DNA of 64,000 bases, taken from Candidatus Nitrotoga sp. HW29 (GTDB lineage Bacteria > Pseudomonadota > Gammaproteobacteria > Burkholderiales > Gallionellaceae). Every line of letters starts with the position of its first letter. Positions within the stretch are counted from its first letter, which is position 1. A model generated the notes under the pieces. That model saw only the letters and a program-made list of their open reading frames with translations, did no database searches and had not been told where the DNA came from. The stretch lies in contig NZ_CAKMAA020000013.1 in assembly GCF_924101635.2 (NCBI RefSeq), forward strand, positions 1-64,000, in the 5' to 3' direction. Below, piece after piece: positions 51,881-63,919 of this stretch. A program made the position numbers and the translations under genes.

Positions 51881-53635
51881 TCAAATCGGCGCACACATGA
51901 CCACCCCCTCATTGATCCAGCCGCGTATGACAACTTCCTGAATGGCTGCAGCACTACTGGAAAGACGGTGGTTGCTATCGACACCGCGGGCAAAGCCATT
52001 GTTATAGGCCCGATAGATCGGCGTTGTCCCGGTCGGACAGGTACCATTGGTCGGTAGGGTTGAAATGAAATCCAGGCTTTCGAAATTCCAGCGCTTCTGC
52101 GTGACGGGCGTGATGGTTTGAAGTTGTTTCAGGCCATCACATTCAGTGCCCGCCAATGTATAGAAATGTGAATTGGGGCCGGGAACCTGGCTGCCGTAGA
52201 AGCGGCAAGCGGGCGTACTGCCGCCCGACTTGAAACTATTGCCGGTGCGAACCCAGCCGGGCCCTGCACTCCCTCCATCGATGCCCGCAGCTTCACCAGC
52301 GTCAGCGGTAATGAAATAATGATCCAGGTTGGTGTTATAGAATTCAACGACGGGCACACTGGCAGAGGCTCCGTTCAGGATATAGCGGGCCAGAACGGCA
52401 CTCGTCGCATCCTGTCCCGCAACGAGCAAACGAGAGTTGGTATCGAGCGCCAGCGCGCTGACGCTCGACATGCCGGGCAACGGAAACGCTCCGCCGATGC
52501 CAAAGTTGGTATCCAGACTGTTATTCGGAAGCAGGCGATACAGCGCAGCCGAACTCGTTTGGGTTTGGCTATCGTAACGGTTGCGCGCTATCAACACACT
52601 GGCATCGGGCAGCGCAGCAAAATTCCAAGTGTGAGAACTTTGATCCGCCAACAAATTATTCGTCCCGATCAGCATGCCATTGCTGGCAATCCGAATCGCG
52701 AGCAGCGATCCGCTAAACGAACCGGGAAGTCTGTTGCTAATGCCAGCCAACAGAGAGCCATCGCTTAACGAGAGCAAAGAGAATGGTGTGCCACCAAAGG
52801 AGAATGGTTCGGCAAAAGCATAGATAAACTGACCGCTCGTCCCGAACGAAGTTACCGGCGATCCATGCGAATCGACCTTATAGAGACGCAGACTTTGAGT
52901 GGTCAGCACAGCAAAGACAACCGAGCCGTCGCCAAGCAAAGCCATATCCGCATACATTGAATTCTCCTCGGCAGGTAAGGGGAATTCAGTTTTACCGCCT
53001 GTGCCAAAACTTGGGTCAGGCGTGCCATCCGGCATGATTTGCTGCAAAATGGCATTTCCGCCTGATGTTGTTCCGTACAGCAAGCGTCCATCTGGACGAA
53101 TGCTCAACGCAATATCCGTATTGGTCCACGATGGTGCCGCGAGAGTGGGGGCGAATCCGGCGTTGAGCATTCCGGCTGCGTCAAGTTGAAACGCTGTAAC
53201 GGTACCGAACGGGATAGTAGACCCGATCCCGGCTCCAGCTACGACCGTTATTGCGCCGCTTACTTGTGCAGCTGCACGCACCCTACCCTTGAATCTGAGG
53301 TATTGCCTCGGCGTCACGCGTCCGTTCGTTCCGAATGAGGCGTCGGGAGAGCCACTTGTCGTCAGGCGCTCAAGCAAATAATCAGGGATCGCGTCAACAA
53401 CTGAGCCACCTGCAAGCACAATTTTTCCCGAAGATTCAACCAATACCGTATCAACCTTGTAGTAGCTCGACGGCACTCCGATGTGCGCGATGCCGTTGTT
53501 TCCGAACGAACTATCAAGCACCGGTGCTGCGTGCGCTTCAAACATCGTGGTATGAAATGCGAAGAGCGCAAAAAATATCGTGAATATTTTTTTAGTTGCT
53601 ACCGTTTCTGATACTTTTAGCAAGCGTGACATCAT
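51881..53635 (-). CDS. Secreted delta-60-repeat protein with C-terminal FYN-type domain
   Basis: 584 residues from ATG ATG at 53635/53632, chosen because AAGGAAAG precedes and a signal peptide follows (cleavage near AHA). The central region (about 40-400) has delta-60 repeats such as LDSSFGNNGIAHIG, SPDASFGTNGRV, TPDPSFGTGGKT and SLDTNFGIGGAF, which are propeller-like. The C-terminal region (about 425-584) has VVEFYNTNLDHYFITAD, ACRFYGSQVPGPNSHFYT and YRAYNNGFARGVDSNHR, like the DUF5648-type domain; two pairs of Cys may form disulfides. Function unknown; probably extracellular. Confidence 0.85.
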   Translation of the reverse strand: MMSRLLKVSETVATKKIFTIFFALFAFHTTMFEAHAAPVLDSSFGNNGIAHIGVPSSYYKVDTVLVESSGKIVLAGGSVVDAIPDYLLERLTTSGSPDASFGTNGRVTPRQYLRFKGRVRAAAQVSGAITVVAGAGIGSTIPFGTVTAFQLDAAGMLNAGFAPTLAAPSWTNTDIALSIRPDGRLLYGTTSGGNAILQQIMPDGTPDPSFGTGGKTEFPLPAEENSMYADMALLGDGSVVFAVLTTQSLRLYKVDSHGSPVTSFGTSGQFIYAFAEPFSFGGTPFSLLSLSDGSLLAGISNRLPGSFSGSLLAIRIASNGMLIGTNNLLADQSSHTWNFAALPDASVLIARNRYDSQTQTSSAALYRLLPNNSLDTNFGIGGAFPLPGMSSVSALALDTNSRLLVAGQDATSAVLARYILNGASASVPVVEFYNTNLDHYFITADAGEAAGIDGGSAGPGWVRTGNSFKSGGSTPACRFYGSQVPGPNSHFYTLAGTECDGLKQLQTITPVTQKRWNFESLDFISTLPTNGTCPTGTTPIYRAYNNGFARGVDSNHRLSSSAAAIQEVVIRGWINEGVVMCAPI

Positions 53636-53823
53636 TCTTTCCTTTATCAATATGGAACCACAGTGGTAACCGGAAATGTCCTTTATGAAGGTGCTTTGGC
53701 AAGGACTAAATGGCGGATAGGTTGTGAACGTCCAGTTTTTTATGGCATTCAACGCAATGCCGAGCTGAGTTTTATTGTTTGATAGCGCTGAGCAATTAAT
53801 ACATTTTTGATGGTACTTCTGGC

Positions 53824-55335
53824 TCATTTTAAATGCAACAAGGGAATCAACCCAAACCATATGATATAGGTTAGCGATGCCACCATCAGCCCATCAATGC
53901 GGCCGCATAATCGTTGCTGTCTCCAGGCACGGTAAAGCAAAAATCCGAGCAGACAAACATGGGGCAGCACCCACGGTAGTAATCCTTGAAAGCTATCGTT
54001 TACTGCCGGTTGATCCTTGATGAGCACTACGACCAATGGCGCTGCTGCGGCCAGTACCAGAGTTAGCAGCGTTGTCCAACCTAATCCCAAGCGTACCACC
54101 AAGGTGCGTTTGCCAGCTTGTTTGTCTGCTTCGAAGTCCGGGATACCCGAGAGAATAATGGCCGGCATTACCGCCAGCAGCAGCGGCAGGCTAATAAGCC
54201 AAGGAAAGGGGCTGTTCCATTCTCCGCCTTGGAATAGATAGCCGCACAGTATTACCCCGAAGCTGTGGGTGACAGCCACATTGAGTTCCCCCAGTCCACG
54301 CCAAACGAGCTTCAGCGGAGGCGCCGTATAACCCAGCCCTAACACGGTCATTACGAGTATTACGATGGGTACAGCATTGTTGCCTGCAAGATAATCCATG
54401 AGCAAGCCGGCACAGGCCGCGGCGGCCATCAATGATATTACGATGCCTGCGCGCAGTTCACCGAAACTTAGATTTTTATCCACAAGTACCCGAGAGCCGC
54501 CAGTAAAGGGGCCGTAATGGCGGTTGCGCCGGTCGCTTTCATAGTCGAACCAATCATTGGTAAATACTGTGGCTGCTTCCAGGAAGAACAGGCAGGCATA
54601 ACCCAGCCAGTAGACCGATGAATTCCAGTCTCCGGTAGCCGCGGCCGCGCCCAATGCGCCGACCGTATAGGCCATCCAGGTCATCGGATAAAATTGGAGC
54701 CGTAATGCCTTGAGCCAAGCTGTGAGTTTGGTGGTAATACGGTCGAGATCGCTTGAGGCACCATGCCTTAAGGAAAAACCGAGCGCTCGGGTTTGCTCCA
54801 GCCATTGTGCCCGTTGGATTGGTTCGGAATCCTTTACTGGACCCAGCGCAAGAATGCGCGTGGTAGTGATGCCACAAAAGCCTAAAGCGGATCGCTTCAT
54901 GGCATTGTGACCGGGGGCGCGGTAGATGAATCGGTATACCCACGGTGGCATATCCAACGTGGTGATGAGATGGGCCGTCTTGCCGGTTAGTAATCCCTCG
55001 AAGTGGCCGTCGTCACGTTCTCTGAAAGCAAATCCCGGCAACAGTATTCGGTCTAGGAATCCTTTAAGGCGAGCCGGCCCGACTCCCCACCAGGCAGGAT
55101 AGATAAAGGTTATGTGATCTGCCCACGTGATGAGCTGCAAGGCGCGTTCGAGGCCAGGTTCCAGTGGTTGATCCCGCGGCGAGACCGGGTGTACGTCAAG
55201 GTCGAAATCGATCGCCCCCAAATCGATCTTCTCAATTTCCATACCGGCCGCCAGCGCGCCATTTTCATAGGCGTTTGCAAGTGCGGAACACAGGCTGGGA
55301 CTACGCGGATGTCCCAAAATTACAAGTACCTTCAT
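53824..55335 (-). CDS. Fusion: NQO1-like NAD(P)H oxidoreductase + UbiA prenyltransferase
   Basis: 503 residues. Residues 1-190 form a flavodoxin-2/NQO1-like quinone reductase: MKVLVILGHPRSPSLCSAL (FMN/FAD phosphate loop), FIYPAWWGVGPARLKGFLDR and LITTLDMPPWVYRF. Residues 210-503 form a UbiA-family membrane prenyltransferase with about eight helices. Both Asp-rich motifs are intact: NDWFDYESDRRN and DFEADKQAGKRT. The single frame has no frameshift at the junction, so the fusion appears real. It would couple isoprenoid-quinone or related aromatic prenylation with redox of a quinone, which is inference. It lies downstream of cld across a MITE. Confidence 0.88.
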   Translation of the reverse strand: MKVLVILGHPRSPSLCSALANAYENGALAAGMEIEKIDLGAIDFDLDVHPVSPRDQPLEPGLERALQLITWADHITFIYPAWWGVGPARLKGFLDRILLPGFAFRERDDGHFEGLLTGKTAHLITTLDMPPWVYRFIYRAPGHNAMKRSALGFCGITTTRILALGPVKDSEPIQRAQWLEQTRALGFSLRHGASSDLDRITTKLTAWLKALRLQFYPMTWMAYTVGALGAAAATGDWNSSVYWLGYACLFFLEAATVFTNDWFDYESDRRNRHYGPFTGGSRVLVDKNLSFGELRAGIVISLMAAAACAGLLMDYLAGNNAVPIVILVMTVLGLGYTAPPLKLVWRGLGELNVAVTHSFGVILCGYLFQGGEWNSPFPWLISLPLLLAVMPAIILSGIPDFEADKQAGKRTLVVRLGLGWTTLLTLVLAAAAPLVVVLIKDQPAVNDSFQGLLPWVLPHVCLLGFLLYRAWRQQRLCGRIDGLMVASLTYIIWFGLIPLLHLK

Positions 55336-55556: not shown

Positions 55557-56534
<978 letters not shown>

Positions 56535-58348: not shown

Positions 58349-59563
58349 TTAGCAAGAAAGTTTGCGTCGCCAAACCGCGGCAGCCCCAACTAGTGCCAAC
58401 GCGAGCAAGATGAAGCCTATTGGCGACAGTGTCGGAATTGAAACGACGGCAGGTGGCGCAAGATCGGGGGTGACGGTGATGGAATAAGGAAATGCCCCGG
58501 TGGCGACGGAAGGGCCTGCCACCGGTGTCAGTGCCCCGGTACCGGCAGCGATGGAGTAGGCCGAGATGGTGTTATTGCCTGCGTTCGCCACATAGGCGAA
58601 GGCGCCGTTCGGACTGACGATGATGGAATAAGAACCTGTCCCAGTGGTGAAGGGAGAGCCTGCCATCGGTGTCAGCACCCCGCCACTGGTGATGGCGAAG
58701 GCCAAGATCCTATTACTGCTTATGTTCGTTACATAGGCGTAGGACCCGTTCGGGCTGATGGCGATGGAACTAGGGCGTGGTGGTGGTGACATGGGAGGAG
58801 CGAAAGGAGAGCCTGCCACTGGCGTCAGCGCCCCGGTGCCGGGGGTGATGGAGTAGGCCGAGACGCTGCCATTGTTGGTTCCGTTTGCCACATAAGCGAA
58901 GGCTCCATTCGGGCTGACGGTGACGAAGCGAGGGTTCGCTTCAGTGGCGACGGCAAGGCCTGTCGGTGTCAGCGTCCCGGTGTCGGCGGCGACGGAGTAG
59001 GTCGAGACGGTGTTATCGCCTGCGTTCGTCACATAGGCGAATGCGCCGTTCGGGCTGACGATAATGGAATAAGGAGATGTCCCGGTGGTGAAGGGTGAAC
59101 CCGACACCTGCGTCAGAGCCCCGGTGCTGGCATTGATAGTGTAGGCCGAGACGCCACCACCATTATTCGTCACATAGGCGAATGCGCCGTTCGGGCTGAC
59201 GGTGACGGAGTTAGGATTTGATCCGGTGGGGAAGGGAGAGTCTGCCACTGGCGTCAGTGCGCCAGTGCTGGCATTGATAGTGTAGGCCGAGACGCCGCCA
59301 CCATTGTTCGCCACATAGGCGAATGCCCTGTTCGGGCTGACGGTGACGGAAACAGGATTTGTTCCGGCAGTGAAGGGAGAGCCCGTCACCGGCGTCAGCA
59401 CCCCAGTGCTGGCATTGATAGCGTAGGCCGAGACGGTGCCCTCGCTTCGGTTCGCCACATAGGCGAAGGACAACGCCCAAGTCTGACCAACGATCCCAAG
59501 CAGGCCGATGAGTGCAAACAGGAATGCTTGGGTGTAGTGCCTACGACGACTCTGCTGGAACAT
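58349..59563 (-). CDS. IPTL-CTERM beta-propeller protein, paralogue 1
   Basis: 404 residues. A signal peptide (about 1-31) ends at GQTWA. Seven beta-propeller blades of about 43 residues follow, each with SPNGAFAYVAN or a variant and TGALTPVAGSPF; the first blade begins FAYVANRSEG. They resemble lactonase/YncE-type propellers. The C-terminal signal is IPTLSPIGFILLALALVGAAAVW plus RRKLSC, the IPTL-CTERM pattern of surface-sorted proteins; a sorting protease would be needed and is not in the window. AGGAGAG precedes the ATG. Last gene of the minus-strand tandem array. Confidence 0.88.
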   Translation of the reverse strand: MFQQSRRRHYTQAFLFALIGLLGIVGQTWALSFAYVANRSEGTVSAYAINASTGVLTPVTGSPFTAGTNPVSVTVSPNRAFAYVANNGGGVSAYTINASTGALTPVADSPFPTGSNPNSVTVSPNGAFAYVTNNGGGVSAYTINASTGALTQVSGSPFTTGTSPYSIIVSPNGAFAYVTNAGDNTVSTYSVAADTGTLTPTGLAVATEANPRFVTVSPNGAFAYVANGTNNGSVSAYSITPGTGALTPVAGSPFAPPMSPPPRPSSIAISPNGSYAYVTNISSNRILAFAITSGGVLTPMAGSPFTTGTGSYSIIVSPNGAFAYVANAGNNTISAYSIAAGTGALTPVAGPSVATGAFPYSITVTPDLAPPAVVSIPTLSPIGFILLALALVGAAAVWRRKLSC

Positions 59564-59673
59564 TTTTCTCTCCTTTTTCCCGGTTAACTGTGATTAACTT
59601 GCTTCTGTTGAATGTGTTTTGTTATGCGGCGGATGATGTGTTTTGTGTGCCCAACCTTCACCCCCACGGCTTA

Positions 59674-60906
59674 TCAGAAAAATCTGCGCCGCTGGGCTGC
59701 AACAGCCACGATCAACATCAACGCGAGCAAGATGAAGCCTGTCGGCGACAGTGTCGGGATTGAAATCACGGCAGGCACTGGTGCAGGCGCAAGATCGGGT
59801 GTGACAGTGACGGAATAAGGAAATGATCCGGTGAGGAAGGGCGAGTCTGCCACCGGTGTCAATATTCCGGTACCGGCGGTGATGGAGTAGGCCGAGACGT
59901 TGCTACTGATCCAGTTCGCTACATAGACGAATGCGCCGTTCGGGCTGACGGTGACGGAAAAAGGAGCTGCCCCGGTGGTAAAGGGAGAGCCTGCCACCGG
60001 CGTCAGCACCCCCGTGCCGGCATTGATGGTGAAGGCCGAGACGCTGTTACTCTCTGAGTTTGCCACATAGGCGAATGCGCCGTTTGGGCTGACGGTGACG
60101 GAGTTAGGGCTCGCCCCACCGGTGGCGAAGGGAGAGCCTGCCACCGGCGTCAGCACGCCGGTGTTGGCGGCGATGGAGTAGGCCGAAACGCCATCACTAC
60201 CCATACTATTACTATTCGCTACGTAAATGAATGCGCCGTTCGGGCTGACGGTGACGGAATAAGGACTTGGTCCGGCGATGAAGGGCGAGCCTGCTACCGG
60301 CGTCAGTGCGCCGGTGCCGGGGGCGATGGAGTAGGCCGAGATGGTGTCACTGCCTTTGTTCGCCACAAAGGCGAATGCGCCGTTCGGGCTGACGGTGACA
60401 GAGGCAGGAGACGTCCCGATACCGGTAGTAAAGGGCGAGCCCGCCACCTGCGTCAGCACTCCGGTGCCGGGGGCGATAGTGTATGCCGAGATGTTGTGAC
60501 TGCCTTGGTTCGCCACAAAGGCGAATGCGCCGTTCGGGCTGACGGTGACGGAGTTAGGGTTTGATCCGGCGGCGAAAGGAGAGCCTGCAACCTGCGTCAG
60601 CGCTCCAGTACTGGGGGTGATCGTGTAGGCCGAGACGCCGCCGCCATTGTTCGCCACAAAGGCGAATGCGCCGTTCGGGCTGACGGTGACGGAACGAGGC
60701 GCTGGCCCGGTGGCGAAGGGAGAGCCTGCTACCTCTGTCAGCGCTCCGGTACCGGCATTGATGGAGTAGGCCGAGACGGTGTTGTTGCCTTCGTTTGCCA
60801 CATAGACAAAGGACAGCGCCCAAGTTTGTCCAACGATTCCAAACAGGCCGATGAATGCAAACAGGAATGCTTGGGTGTAGTGCCTACGGTGACGCTGTTG
60901 GAACAT
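59674..60906 (-). CDS. IPTL-CTERM beta-propeller protein, paralogue 2
   Basis: 410 residues with the same plan as its neighbours: signal peptide to about 31, seven blades (SFVYVANEGNN first; later YVANSNSMGSD and FVANKGSD), then AVISIPTLSPTGFILLALMLIV and RRRFF. Blade variants contain N-G-G-G or Q-G-S loops. The 3' flank (CGGCTTATCAGAAAAATC) is shared with paralogue 3, so these two form a duplicate pair. The gap to paralogue 1 is 110 bp. Confidence 0.88.
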   Translation of the reverse strand: MFQQRHRRHYTQAFLFAFIGLFGIVGQTWALSFVYVANEGNNTVSAYSINAGTGALTEVAGSPFATGPAPRSVTVSPNGAFAFVANNGGGVSAYTITPSTGALTQVAGSPFAAGSNPNSVTVSPNGAFAFVANQGSHNISAYTIAPGTGVLTQVAGSPFTTGIGTSPASVTVSPNGAFAFVANKGSDTISAYSIAPGTGALTPVAGSPFIAGPSPYSVTVSPNGAFIYVANSNSMGSDGVSAYSIAANTGVLTPVAGSPFATGGASPNSVTVSPNGAFAYVANSESNSVSAFTINAGTGVLTPVAGSPFTTGAAPFSVTVSPNGAFVYVANWISSNVSAYSITAGTGILTPVADSPFLTGSFPYSVTVTPDLAPAPVPAVISIPTLSPTGFILLALMLIVAVAAQRRRFF

Positions 60907-61231
60907 GGTGTTTCTTCCCTATTTTATTGTCAATTGCGATTAATATAATTCTGTTACATGCGTTTTTCTATGGAGCGGATGCACGCTAAAAGTATTTACT
61001 AAAAAATCAGGCAAGGCTGGTATGAGTTTACGAGTCAAGCACTTGGCATAATAGTATCGAGAATATAATGACATAACTGCACAAGTCAAATTTAGCTTAT
61101 CTTTTTTTAAAGCGCGTTGTTGATATCACCGAAAACGACAAAATTGCCAACCGCGGGCATGGTCGAATTGCCATACGATATTGCGACGAATGAGGTAATT
61201 TTCTTGTCCCCAATCTTCATCCCGCGGCTTA
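60907..61231. other. Spacer between propeller genes 2 and 3
   Basis: 325 bp, AT-rich in its middle, with no coding signal. The part next to gene 2 resembles the upstream regions of genes 1 and 4 (GATTAAT, CTGTTACATGCG, GCGGATG), so the duplicated unit includes the 5' control region. Confidence 0.55.
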
Positions 61232-62464
61232 TCAGAAAAATCCGCGTCGTTGAACTGCAACAGCCACGACCAGCGCCAGCGCGAGCAAGATGAAGCCTGT
61301 CGGTGACAGCGTCGGGATTGAAGCCACGGTAGGAACAGGCGCAGGAACAGGCGCAGGAACAGGCGCAAGATCGGGGGTGACGGTGACGGAGGTAGGAGCT
61401 GATCCGGTGGTGACGGATGGGCCTGCCACCGGTGTCAGCACTCCGGTGCCGGTAGTGATAGTGTAGGCCGAGACGGTGTTATTGCCTGCGTTCGCTACAT
61501 AGACGAAGGCGCCGTTCGGACTGACGCTGACGGAGACGGGAGCAGATCCGGTGATGACGGATGGGCCTGCCACCGGTGTCAGTACCCCGGTACCGGCAGT
61601 GATAGTGTAGGCCGAGACGGTGTTATTGCCTGCGTTCGCCACATAGGCAAAGGCGCCGTTCGGACTGATGGTGATGGAGGTCGGAGATATCCCGGTAACA
61701 ACGGGAGGGCCTGCCACCGGTGTCAGCACCCCGGTGCCGGCATTGATAGTGTAGGCCGAGATGGTGTTATTGCCTGCGTTCGCCACATAGGCAAAGGCGC
61801 CGTTCGGACTGACGGTGACGGAGGTCGGAGATATCCCGGTAGCAACGGGAGGGCCTGCCACTGGTGTCAGCGCCCCGGTGCCGGCATTGATGGAGTAGGC
61901 CGAGATGGTGGTATTGAAAACATTCGCCACATAGGCGAATGCGCTGTTCGGGCTGACGGTGATGGAATAAGGACCTGCCCCAGTGGTGACGGATGGGCCT
62001 GCCACCGGTGTAAGAGCGCCAGTGCCGGCAGTGATGGAGTAGGCCGAGATGGTGCTGCTGCCTATGTTCGTCACATAGACAAAGGCGCCGTTCGGGCTGA
62101 CGGTGATGGAATAAGGATTCACTCCGGCGGCGACAGCTGGGCCTGCCACCGGCGTCAATACCCCGGTATCGGCATCGATGGAGTAGGCCGAGACGGTGTC
62201 ACTGTCTTGGTTCGCCACATAGGCGAAGGCGCCGTTTGGGCTGACGGTGACGGAATAAGGACCTGTCTCCGTGGTGACAGCTGGGCCTGCCACCGGTGTC
62301 AATGCCCCGGTGCCGGGGGCGATGGAGTAGGCCGAGACGGTGTCACTGGAATAATTTGTCACATAGACGAAGGACAGTGCCCAAGTCTGGCCAACGATCC
62401 CAAACAGGCCGATGAGTGCAAACAGCAATGCTTGGGTGTAATGCCTACGACTCTGCTGGAACAT
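61232..62464 (-). CDS. IPTL-CTERM beta-propeller protein, paralogue 3
   Basis: 410 residues. Signal peptide (MFQQSRRHYTQALLFALIG), seven blades, and SIPTLSPTGFILLALALVVAV with QRRGFF. Here blades mostly read TPVAGPxVxTG in place of SPFxTG, and several carry AYVANAGNNTISAY, giving a blade subtype distinct from paralogues 1, 2 and 4 and high similarity between adjacent blades. A Pro/Ala/Val repeat (APVPAPVPAPVP) precedes the sorting signal. GGAGGAAAC lies before the ATG. Confidence 0.88.
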   Translation of the reverse strand: MFQQSRRHYTQALLFALIGLFGIVGQTWALSFVYVTNYSSDTVSAYSIAPGTGALTPVAGPAVTTETGPYSVTVSPNGAFAYVANQDSDTVSAYSIDADTGVLTPVAGPAVAAGVNPYSITVSPNGAFVYVTNIGSSTISAYSITAGTGALTPVAGPSVTTGAGPYSITVSPNSAFAYVANVFNTTISAYSINAGTGALTPVAGPPVATGISPTSVTVSPNGAFAYVANAGNNTISAYTINAGTGVLTPVAGPPVVTGISPTSITISPNGAFAYVANAGNNTVSAYTITAGTGVLTPVAGPSVITGSAPVSVSVSPNGAFVYVANAGNNTVSAYTITTGTGVLTPVAGPSVTTGSAPTSVTVTPDLAPVPAPVPAPVPTVASIPTLSPTGFILLALALVVAVAVQRRGFF

Positions 62465-62692
62465 GGTGTTTCCTCCTTGTTCAGTTGTTAACTGCGATTA
62501 GTATGATTCGCTACTCCAAATTAATTGGAATCGGATTTCGCCCGGAACCTGTACATATTCAAGTAGTTAGCAAAAATGAGCTTATAGGCCTATACGCTTG
62601 CAGGAGGCCGTGTGCTATTTGGTGATTGTTCCCGCGCGCATGTATACCATGTTGAACCCCAGCTACGCGCGGGTGGCGCGTATTTTATAAAG

Positions 62693-63919
62693 TCATTGCC
62701 CGGTACGTCCGGTCAAAATTCTGCGTCGCTGAACTGCGACAGCCACGATCAGTGCCAGCGCGAGCAAGATGAAGCCCATCGGCGACAGTGTCGGGATAGC
62801 AACGACGGCGGGTGCAGGCGCAGGAACAAGATCGGGGGTGAAGGCGATGGAGGCAGGACTTGGCTCGACGAAGGGAGAGCCAGCTATTGGCGTCAAAAAC
62901 CCAGTGCCGGCGGCGATGGAGTAGATTGAGACGGAGCTACTGTATAGGTTCGTCACATAGACGAATGCGCCGTTCGGGCTGACGGTGACGGAGTTAGGGA
63001 GTGTCCCGGCAGTGAAGGGAGAGCCTGTCACCGGCGTCAGTGCGCCAGTGCTGGCATTGATAGCGTGGGCTGAGACGCCATTATTATTCGCCACAAAGGC
63101 GAATGCGCCGTTCGGGCTGATGGTGACGGAGTTAGAGTTTGATCCGATGGAGAAGGGAGAGCCTGCCACCTGCGTCAGAGCCCCGGTGCTGGCATTGATA
63201 GTGTAGACCGAGACGCCACCACCACCATTCGCCACATAGGCGAATGCGCCGCTCGGGCTGACTGTGACGGAGCGAGGACCTGACCCGGCGGTGAAGGGAG
63301 AACCTGTCACCGGCGTCAGTGCGCCAGTGCTGGCATTGATGGTGTAGGCCGAGACGCTACCAATACCACTACTATTCGCCACATAGGCGAATGCGCCGTT
63401 CGGGCTGACTGTGACGGAACGAGGATTCACTCCGGTGGTGAAGGGAGAGCCTGCCACTGGCGTCAGTGCGCCAGTACCGGCGGCGATGGTGAAGGCAGAG
63501 ACGCCACCACCGTTGTTTGCCACATAGGCGAATGCGCCATTCGGACTGACGGTGACGGAGATAGGCACTGGCCCACCGGTGGTGAAGGGAGAGCCTGTCA
63601 CCTCTGTCAGAGCGCCAGTACTGGCATTGATGGTGTAGGCCGAGACGCTACCAATACCACTAGCATTCGCCACATAGGCGAATGCGCCGTTCGGGCTGAC
63701 GGTGACGGAAGAAGACGTTATCCCGGCGGTGAAGGGAGAGCCTGCTACCTGCGTCAGTGCACCAGTGCCGGCGGCGATGGAGTAGGCCGAGACGGTGCCA
63801 TTTGCGTTCGCCACATAGACAAAAGACAGCGCCCAAGTCTGACCAACGATTCCAAACAGGCCGATGAGTGCAAACAGAAATGCTTGGGTGTAGTGCTTAC
63901 GACGATTCTGTTGGAACAT
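62693..63919 (-). CDS. IPTL-CTERM beta-propeller protein, paralogue 4
   Basis: 408 residues. Signal peptide (MFQQNRRKHYTQAFLFALIG), seven blades with alternating AYVANASGIGSVSAY and AYVANNGGGVSAF loops, and AIPTLSPMGFILLALALIVAV with a longer tail (QRRRILTGRTGQ). The 3' flank GCCCGGTACGTCC is shared with paralogue 1. GGAGGAAAC precedes the ATG. The region 63920-64000 upstream resembles the other upstream regions, so the array may continue beyond the window. Confidence 0.88.
   Translation of the reverse strand: MFQQNRRKHYTQAFLFALIGLFGIVGQTWALSFVYVANANGTVSAYSIAAGTGALTQVAGSPFTAGITSSSVTVSPNGAFAYVANASGIGSVSAYTINASTGALTEVTGSPFTTGGPVPISVTVSPNGAFAYVANNGGGVSAFTIAAGTGALTPVAGSPFTTGVNPRSVTVSPNGAFAYVANSSGIGSVSAYTINASTGALTPVTGSPFTAGSGPRSVTVSPSGAFAYVANGGGGVSVYTINASTGALTQVAGSPFSIGSNSNSVTISPNGAFAFVANNNGVSAHAINASTGALTPVTGSPFTAGTLPNSVTVSPNGAFVYVTNLYSSSVSIYSIAAGTGFLTPIAGSPFVEPSPASIAFTPDLVPAPAPAVVAIPTLSPMGFILLALALIVAVAVQRRRILTGRTGQ

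Follow-up and report, generated by a model that had tools for sequence, protein, structure and literature searches.

Four tandem propeller genes beside mutS

In a 64,000-nucleotide stretch of the genome of Candidatus Nitrotoga sp. HW29 (the window, which opens a contig of 100,410 bases), four complete open reading frames (ORFs), arranged head to tail and all on the minus strand, encode seven-bladed propeller proteins that end in a sorting tail of the IPTL type (W1-W4; Table 1). The array is flanked by an aminotransferase gene (PF00155, 56981-58249) and by mutS (from 64325 in the contig). All four proteins exceeded the cut-off (21.7) of the Pfam Lactonase family PF10282, with 134.8, 155.7, 166.1 and 121.4 bits for W1-W4, respectively, and that (20.5) of the NCBIfam IPTL_CTERM family TIGR04174, with protein scores of 25.9, 29.2, 24.0 and 24.2. 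For the Pfam IPTL family PF18203 (cut-off 20.8), W2 (23.7) and W3 (23.3) were above and W1 (17.7) and W4 (17.2) below, and the YVTN repeat TIGR02276 (cut-off 27.85 bits) was exceeded by W2 (33.4) and W3 (28.8), with no score listed for W1 and W4. Each gene contains seven blade units of 46-53 residues, mostly 47-48, with successive units spaced at 138-159 nt in the DNA, and each protein starts with a leader, judged by eye to be a signal peptide, that ends in GQTWALS after a hydrophobic stretch. The ORFs, both family profiles and the blade units thus confirm four tandem seven-bladed propeller genes with an IPTL tail, as proposed in a first-pass annotation made from the sequence alone, and the shared signal peptide and the length of 404-410 residues also agree with that proposal, while its common 43-residue unit was wrong.

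Table 1. Genes, sorting tails and spacers of the array (positions in the window)
Feature	Position	Strand	Description	Evidence
W1	58349..59563	-	Seven-bladed propeller gene (404 aa), closest to the aminotransferase gene	ORF and family profiles
W1 tail	58364..58438	-	IPTL-CTERM tail	TIGR04174 30.9 bits, whole-genome search
W2-W1 spacer	59564..59673	.	Shortened copy of the ancestral mutS-side flank	blastn matches in two separate stretches upstream of the MKT gene (L034)
W2	59674..60906	-	410 aa seven-bladed propeller gene; AlphaFold-modelled protein	ORF and family profiles
W2 tail	59683..59760	-	IPTL-CTERM tail	TIGR04174 33 bits, whole-genome search
W3-W2 spacer	60907..61231	.	Copy of the ancestral mutS-side flank	74.6% over 295 nt, region upstream of the MKT gene
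W3	61232..62464	-	410 aa seven-bladed propeller gene, most regular 48-residue units	ORF and family profiles
W3 tail	61244..61318	-	IPTL-CTERM tail	TIGR04174 28.7 bits, whole-genome search
W4-W3 spacer	62465..62692	.	Copy of the ancestral aminotransferase-side (downstream) flank	76.9% over 169 nt, downstream of the LAW gene (L033)
W4	62693..63919	-	408 aa seven-bladed propeller gene, nearest mutS	ORF and family profiles
W4 tail	62720..62797	-	IPTL-CTERM tail	TIGR04174 29.3 bits, whole-genome search

Probable amplification at a locus shared with single-copy relatives

Candidatus Nitrotoga LAW, MKT and CP45 are the nearest named relatives, together with a betaproteobacterial metagenome-assembled genome (MAG) from Lake Fargette. 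In each of these four, a single propeller gene is located between the same neighbours, versus four here (in LAW, a gene for a FAD-binding protein separates the propeller and aminotransferase genes), so that the one-to-one conservation named in the first-pass annotation as evidence against blade shuffling was not found. The search for relatives retained 80 of 96 matches, representing 78 loci in which ORFs of at least 200 residues were read. At E <= 1e-30, the propeller gene was present genome-wide in 5 of the 19 genomes of the genus, in which each species is represented by one genome, and in 27 of the 150 of a family sample. mutS was found in 17 of the 19, with a propeller gene beside it in five (HW29 and the four relatives); as some of the other sequences end close to mutS, the genome-wide count is the firmer one. 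Under a threshold of E <= 0.001, W4 had matches in 11 of the 19 genomes, many of them weaker relatives near 30% identity. LAW harbours an additional propeller copy elsewhere (L049:7974-8752) that is shortened, frameshifted and left with too few blades. The mutS neighbourhood itself differs among Nitrotoga genomes: besides the FAD-binding protein gene of LAW (L033:9354-10568), a toxin-antitoxin-like pair (Gp49-like plus helix-turn-helix; L122:744-1426) was found in another and an erythromycin-esterase-family gene adjoining mutS (L112:1-1197) in a third.

In a tree of the eight genes, W1-W4 are split off from the orthologs by a branch supported at 100/99. The spacers of the array resemble pieces of the flanks of the single-copy genes: the ancestral mutS-side flank is found upstream of W4, W2 and, shortened, W1, and the downstream flank of W1 is similar to that of the orthologs. 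Because the copies group together and the spacers are ancestral flank pieces, the array appears to have grown at this locus, from which the W copies descend with considerable divergence. From the flanks and the tree we infer that four genes arose from one, rather than one from four. Among the W genes the signal-peptide regions share 89-94% identity, versus 79-86% with those of the orthologs, and the W genes may have been homogenised at their 5' end.

The host genome is a 2.99-Mb draft of 96 contigs, in which a whole-genome search returned the same four propeller genes and no fifth copy. Repetitive DNA in a draft so fragmented could yield an artefactual array or collapsed repeats. However, the W copies share just 75-79% of their DNA sequence (differences of 21-25%) and the array sits inside a contig of 100 kb, which makes an assembly artefact unlikely; the spacers, moreover, match flanks found in relatives, and the artefact was set aside as scarcely credible. 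The array was also described in the first-pass annotation as G+C-rich, which holds relative to the part of the window ahead of it (58.1 versus 48.3%). The four single-copy orthologs, however, are equally G+C-rich (59.7-62.6%), so that high G+C is a trait of the gene family, and recent import was rejected.

Evidence of blade turnover within and between genes

Median protein identity between the blades of one gene was 0.55 in W1, 0.70 in W2, 0.69 in W3, 0.72 in W4 and 0.67-0.77 in the four orthologs. The threshold for a highly repetitive propeller in the excerpts of PMC9218822 is a median internal identity >60%, our values being taken over ungapped columns, perhaps another measure than that of the paper. 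For 27 of the 54 blades of the eight Nitrotoga genes, the nearest blade is in the same gene.

Blades inherited in place should resemble their counterparts at the same position in other orthologs. Positional orthology was determined on interior blades, with the first and last blade of each gene left out. Across the eight genes, identity between blades at the same position was 0.749, versus 0.750 after shuffling (567 of 1000 shuffles reach the observed value), and in the four single-copy orthologs alone it was 0.783, versus 0.783 after shuffling. In a control of eight firmicute YVTN-type propeller proteins, drawn from the 78 loci and chosen by eye as one orthologous family and less repetitive (0.615 within genes), same-position identity was 0.842 versus 0.655 (0 of 1000 shuffles). 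By this comparison, interior blades are without positional orthology, even between syntenic single-copy orthologs.

Different W genes are linked by exact tracts of at least 35 nt, eight in total, five of which are at non-equivalent blades; when codons were redrawn with the proteins unchanged (200 draws), such tracts averaged 0.0 and never numbered more than 1. The view of the first-pass annotation that the repeats favour recombination and thereby blade shuffling is supported by both results. Four linked copies with tracts common to non-equivalent blades would also fit a cassette system, in which one expressed gene is fed blades by silent copies as in antigenic variation. Yet each of the four copies is a full ORF with its start, signal peptide and tail, so that none looks silent, four relatives manage with one copy, and no recombinase gene was seen beside the array, although none was sought; a cassette system is therefore very improbable.

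Blade number and structure

Six blade units were counted in the CP45 and Lake Fargette genes and seven in the other six. The AlphaFold model of W2, produced with 25 proteins picked from the window and the 78 loci, is a seven-bladed propeller (predicted local distance difference test (pLDDT) score of 92) that superimposes on the archaeal surface-layer YVTN propeller 1l0q with Z 44.0 and a root-mean-square deviation of 1.4 A over 294 residues. The AlphaFold model of CP45 (11 proteins used; pLDDT 87.8) has six blades. In VIA-align 2 it fits best on the six-bladed YWTD propeller (2.3 A, Z 29.8) and on Pizza6, six-bladed by its entry name (2.1 A, Z 29.5), versus 3.3-4.0 A and Z about 27.5 on seven-bladed structures, the margin in Z, against 27.6, being small; Foldseek ranks seven-bladed proteins first by E-value for the same model.

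Variability on one face of the propeller

Strand topology places the BC and DA loops of a four-stranded blade together on one propeller face and its AB and CD loops on the opposite one. The ratio of non-synonymous to synonymous differences (pN/pS) was computed over 13 non-overlapping pairs of recently related blades, with loop bounds either taken from the model strands or set by hand. Under strand-defined bounds, pN/pS was 0.86 (0.52-1.32) for the BC and DA loops, 0.25 (0.16-0.35) for the AB and CD loops and 0.53 (0.41-0.73) for the strands. With more pairs, the BC and DA value was 0.83 (19 pairs) and 0.81 (24 pairs; 0.66-0.99); with hand-set bounds, chosen after the variable columns had been seen, it was 1.21 (0.82-1.99). 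Length changes, with the exception of alignment column 27 and of columns 58-59 at the unit end, are confined to the BC and DA loops. Positive selection on these loops is not supported, and the pattern is best described, as far as these sequences go, as freer change on one face rather than proven positive selection.

Export and exosortase H

Two exosortase H genes are encoded on other contigs of the genome (TIGR04177 198.6 and 198.5 bits; cut-off 86), which provides the probable sorting enzyme that the first-pass annotation proposed to look for. One, on contig C24, adjoins the gene of another IPTL protein, and the other, on C67, is ~4 kb from a further one (L011:1477-3066), a protein with near-identical long repeats and a choice-of-anchor U domain. 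Exosortase A is also present in the genome. Exosortase H was found in five of the five Nitrotoga genomes that carry the propeller and in five of the 14 that do not (one-sided P = 0.022, uncorrected for relatedness). Exosortase H is thinly covered in the open-licence PMC literature searched, where no paper joining IPTL-CTERM and exosortase was found.

The arrangement is like that of PEP-CTERM/exosortase sorting, which, in the excerpts of PMC1569441, combines an N-terminal signal, a C-terminal motif with a hydrophobic helix and a basic end, and a cognate membrane enzyme in the genome, whereas here an IPTL motif and exosortase H take the place of the PEP motif and EpsH.

Function of the array

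We consider that the W proteins are exported, that exosortase H probably processes them and that they probably act as binding scaffolds without enzyme activity, diversified through the recombination of blades; to this reading we assign a probability of about 0.6. The signal peptide would carry these propellers of the Lactonase/YVTN lineage across the inner membrane. Exosortase H, encoded at other sites in the genome, would probably cleave the IPTL tail with its short motif, hydrophobic helix and basic end, and the propeller would then remain beyond the inner membrane, in all likelihood at the cell's outer surface or within the extracellular matrix. Most of the propeller frame would be kept while the BC and DA loops of one face vary in sequence and length. 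One ancestral gene between mutS and the aminotransferase gene would have given rise to the four copies of this lineage. Unequal recombination among similar units, within and between genes, would keep replacing, duplicating and deleting blades; such recombination may have erased the positional orthology of interior blades and altered blade number, which is six instead of seven in two relatives.

Several observations weigh against this reading. A whole-gene test keeps a positional signal (0 of 2000 shuffles; 9 of 2000 for W1-W4 alone); it vanishes on omission of the first and last blades, which hold position, as would be expected if recombination joins internal repeats. LAW versus MKT alone gives a weak interior signal (0.759 versus 0.752; 118 of 1000 shuffles), and the six-blade counts rest on draft assemblies. 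The tails are 71-83% identical among W1-W4 and 74-82% identical to those of the orthologs, and, being no closer among themselves, argue that the array is not very young. With 13-24 pairs, pN/pS of the variable loops is not confidently above 1, hence relaxed constraint also fits. When W1-W4 blades were compared all against all, the C strand (1.19) and the A strand (0.80) were also high because synonymous change is low there; in the four orthologs these ratios (0.29 and 0.57) are not high. Finally, exosortase H substrates generally carry an IPTLxxWG motif, and the W tails (IPTLSPIGF, IPTLSPTGF, IPTLSPTGF and IPTLSPMGF) are without its WG pair, keeping the G but not the W, while still passing TIGR04174.

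An alternative is that the genes encode exported lactonase or sugar-acid enzymes, duplicated for dosage or substrate range. The Lactonase scores (121-166 bits, cut-off 21.7) and the fold, which matches 6-phosphogluconolactonases at Z 41-43.5, would agree with it. However, the 6-phosphogluconolactonase equivalog NF008258 gave just 66.5, 68.5, 92.4 and 47.4 bits for W1-W4, far under its cut-off of 370, and, by composition counts, each propeller of the eight genes contains 1.2-3.6% charged residues (D/E/K/R) and 0-2 histidines, versus 6.0-7.3% D/E/K/R in the eight control proteins. Propeller enzymes, in addition, have their active site on the face that corresponds to the variable one here. On the few charged residues and histidines and the equivalog cut-off missed by far, the proteins are probably binding or structural scaffolds; the enzyme was set aside as main explanation and is judged improbable.

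The same paucity of charge would suit a structural matrix or surface-layer (S-layer)-like coat, in which the propellers are bulk building blocks with one nearly unconstrained face, and homogenisation and amplification are by-products of repetitive DNA that bring a dosage benefit at most and no selected diversity. The archaeal surface-layer propeller is the best match in both sequence and structure, and a variable-loop pN/pS at or below 1 is the neutral expectation. Yet the gene is lacking, at E <= 1e-30, in 14 of the 19 genomes of the genus, unlike an essential coat, and another S-layer protein, NpdA, has Nitrotoga orthologs reported in the excerpts of PMC10765051. We regard a coat as possible, though doubtful.

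A stronger form of the binding-scaffold reading, which we hold to be unlikely, is a combinatorial generator of diversity: blade swaps, each bringing its own pair of variable loops onto a recognition face, across a multi-gene exported set, could shift population repertoires of binding faces with no dedicated recombinase and with a tunable blade number.

Relation to known systems

Propellers continuously amplified from single blades are described in the excerpts of PMC9218822, with two Lactonase-like families among those listed. These are alike in that blades are closer within a protein than to the equivalent blades of homologs, in blade numbers off the norm of the lineage and in decaying copies (here the additional LAW copy). 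The array differs from them, so far as those excerpts go, in being a multi-gene set at a fixed locus with tracts shared by paralogs at non-equivalent blades and a sorting tail, in the loss of interior positional orthology among syntenic orthologs, and in change biased to one face; an array or tail of this kind is not described there.

The archaeal propeller 1l0q, also exported, repetitive and seven-bladed, is the best Protein Data Bank match by sequence (E 1.2e-19) and shows 27% identity in the fold comparison, but carries a PKD domain according to its entry title, whereas the W proteins consist of one propeller and the IPTL tail. The 6-phosphogluconolactonases 6nau and 1ri6 share the seven-bladed fold (Z 43.5 and 43.2) and the Pfam family; the W proteins differ in the unmet equivalog cut-off, few charged residues, repetitive blades and export with a tail. 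Lactonase-type propeller ORFs also occur in same-strand sets at five loci (8 in L050, 5 in L062, 4 in L055 and 3 each in L091 and L105) of Rhodococcus, Lolliginicoccus and an Actinomycetota MAG. These actinobacterial proteins are 28-40% identical to those of Nitrotoga, and their C-terminal ends are rich in G and S in several sets or of other kinds, with no IPTL tail in the ORFs.

Three other genes of the window were noted, all on the minus strand: one near the array for a chlorite dismutase family protein with a leader-like N-terminus (55557-56432; PF06778, 101.9 bits), a single ORF in which a flavodoxin-like part (PF02525) at the N-terminus is fused to a UbiA prenyltransferase part (PF01040; 53824-55335), and one for a different repeat protein with delta-60/DUF5122 propeller-type repeats and DUF5648 (51881-53860).

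Nothing on this array was found in the open-licence PMC literature searched, including Nitrotoga together with IPTL-CTERM (none). As far as that literature shows, what is new is a syntenic series, within a single genus, in which changes in copy number and in blade number, exchange of blades among paralogs and one-face variability come together in a protein with an IPTL tail. If the array were a generator of diversity, its binding faces might serve phage evasion, recognition of kin or partners, or matrix binding. Because this genus combines syntenic single-copy orthologs, an array of four, propellers of six and of seven blades and a decaying copy, the gain, loss and exchange of blades become traceable step by step. 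Whether the one-face change is selected also becomes testable, in a little-studied nitrite oxidiser.

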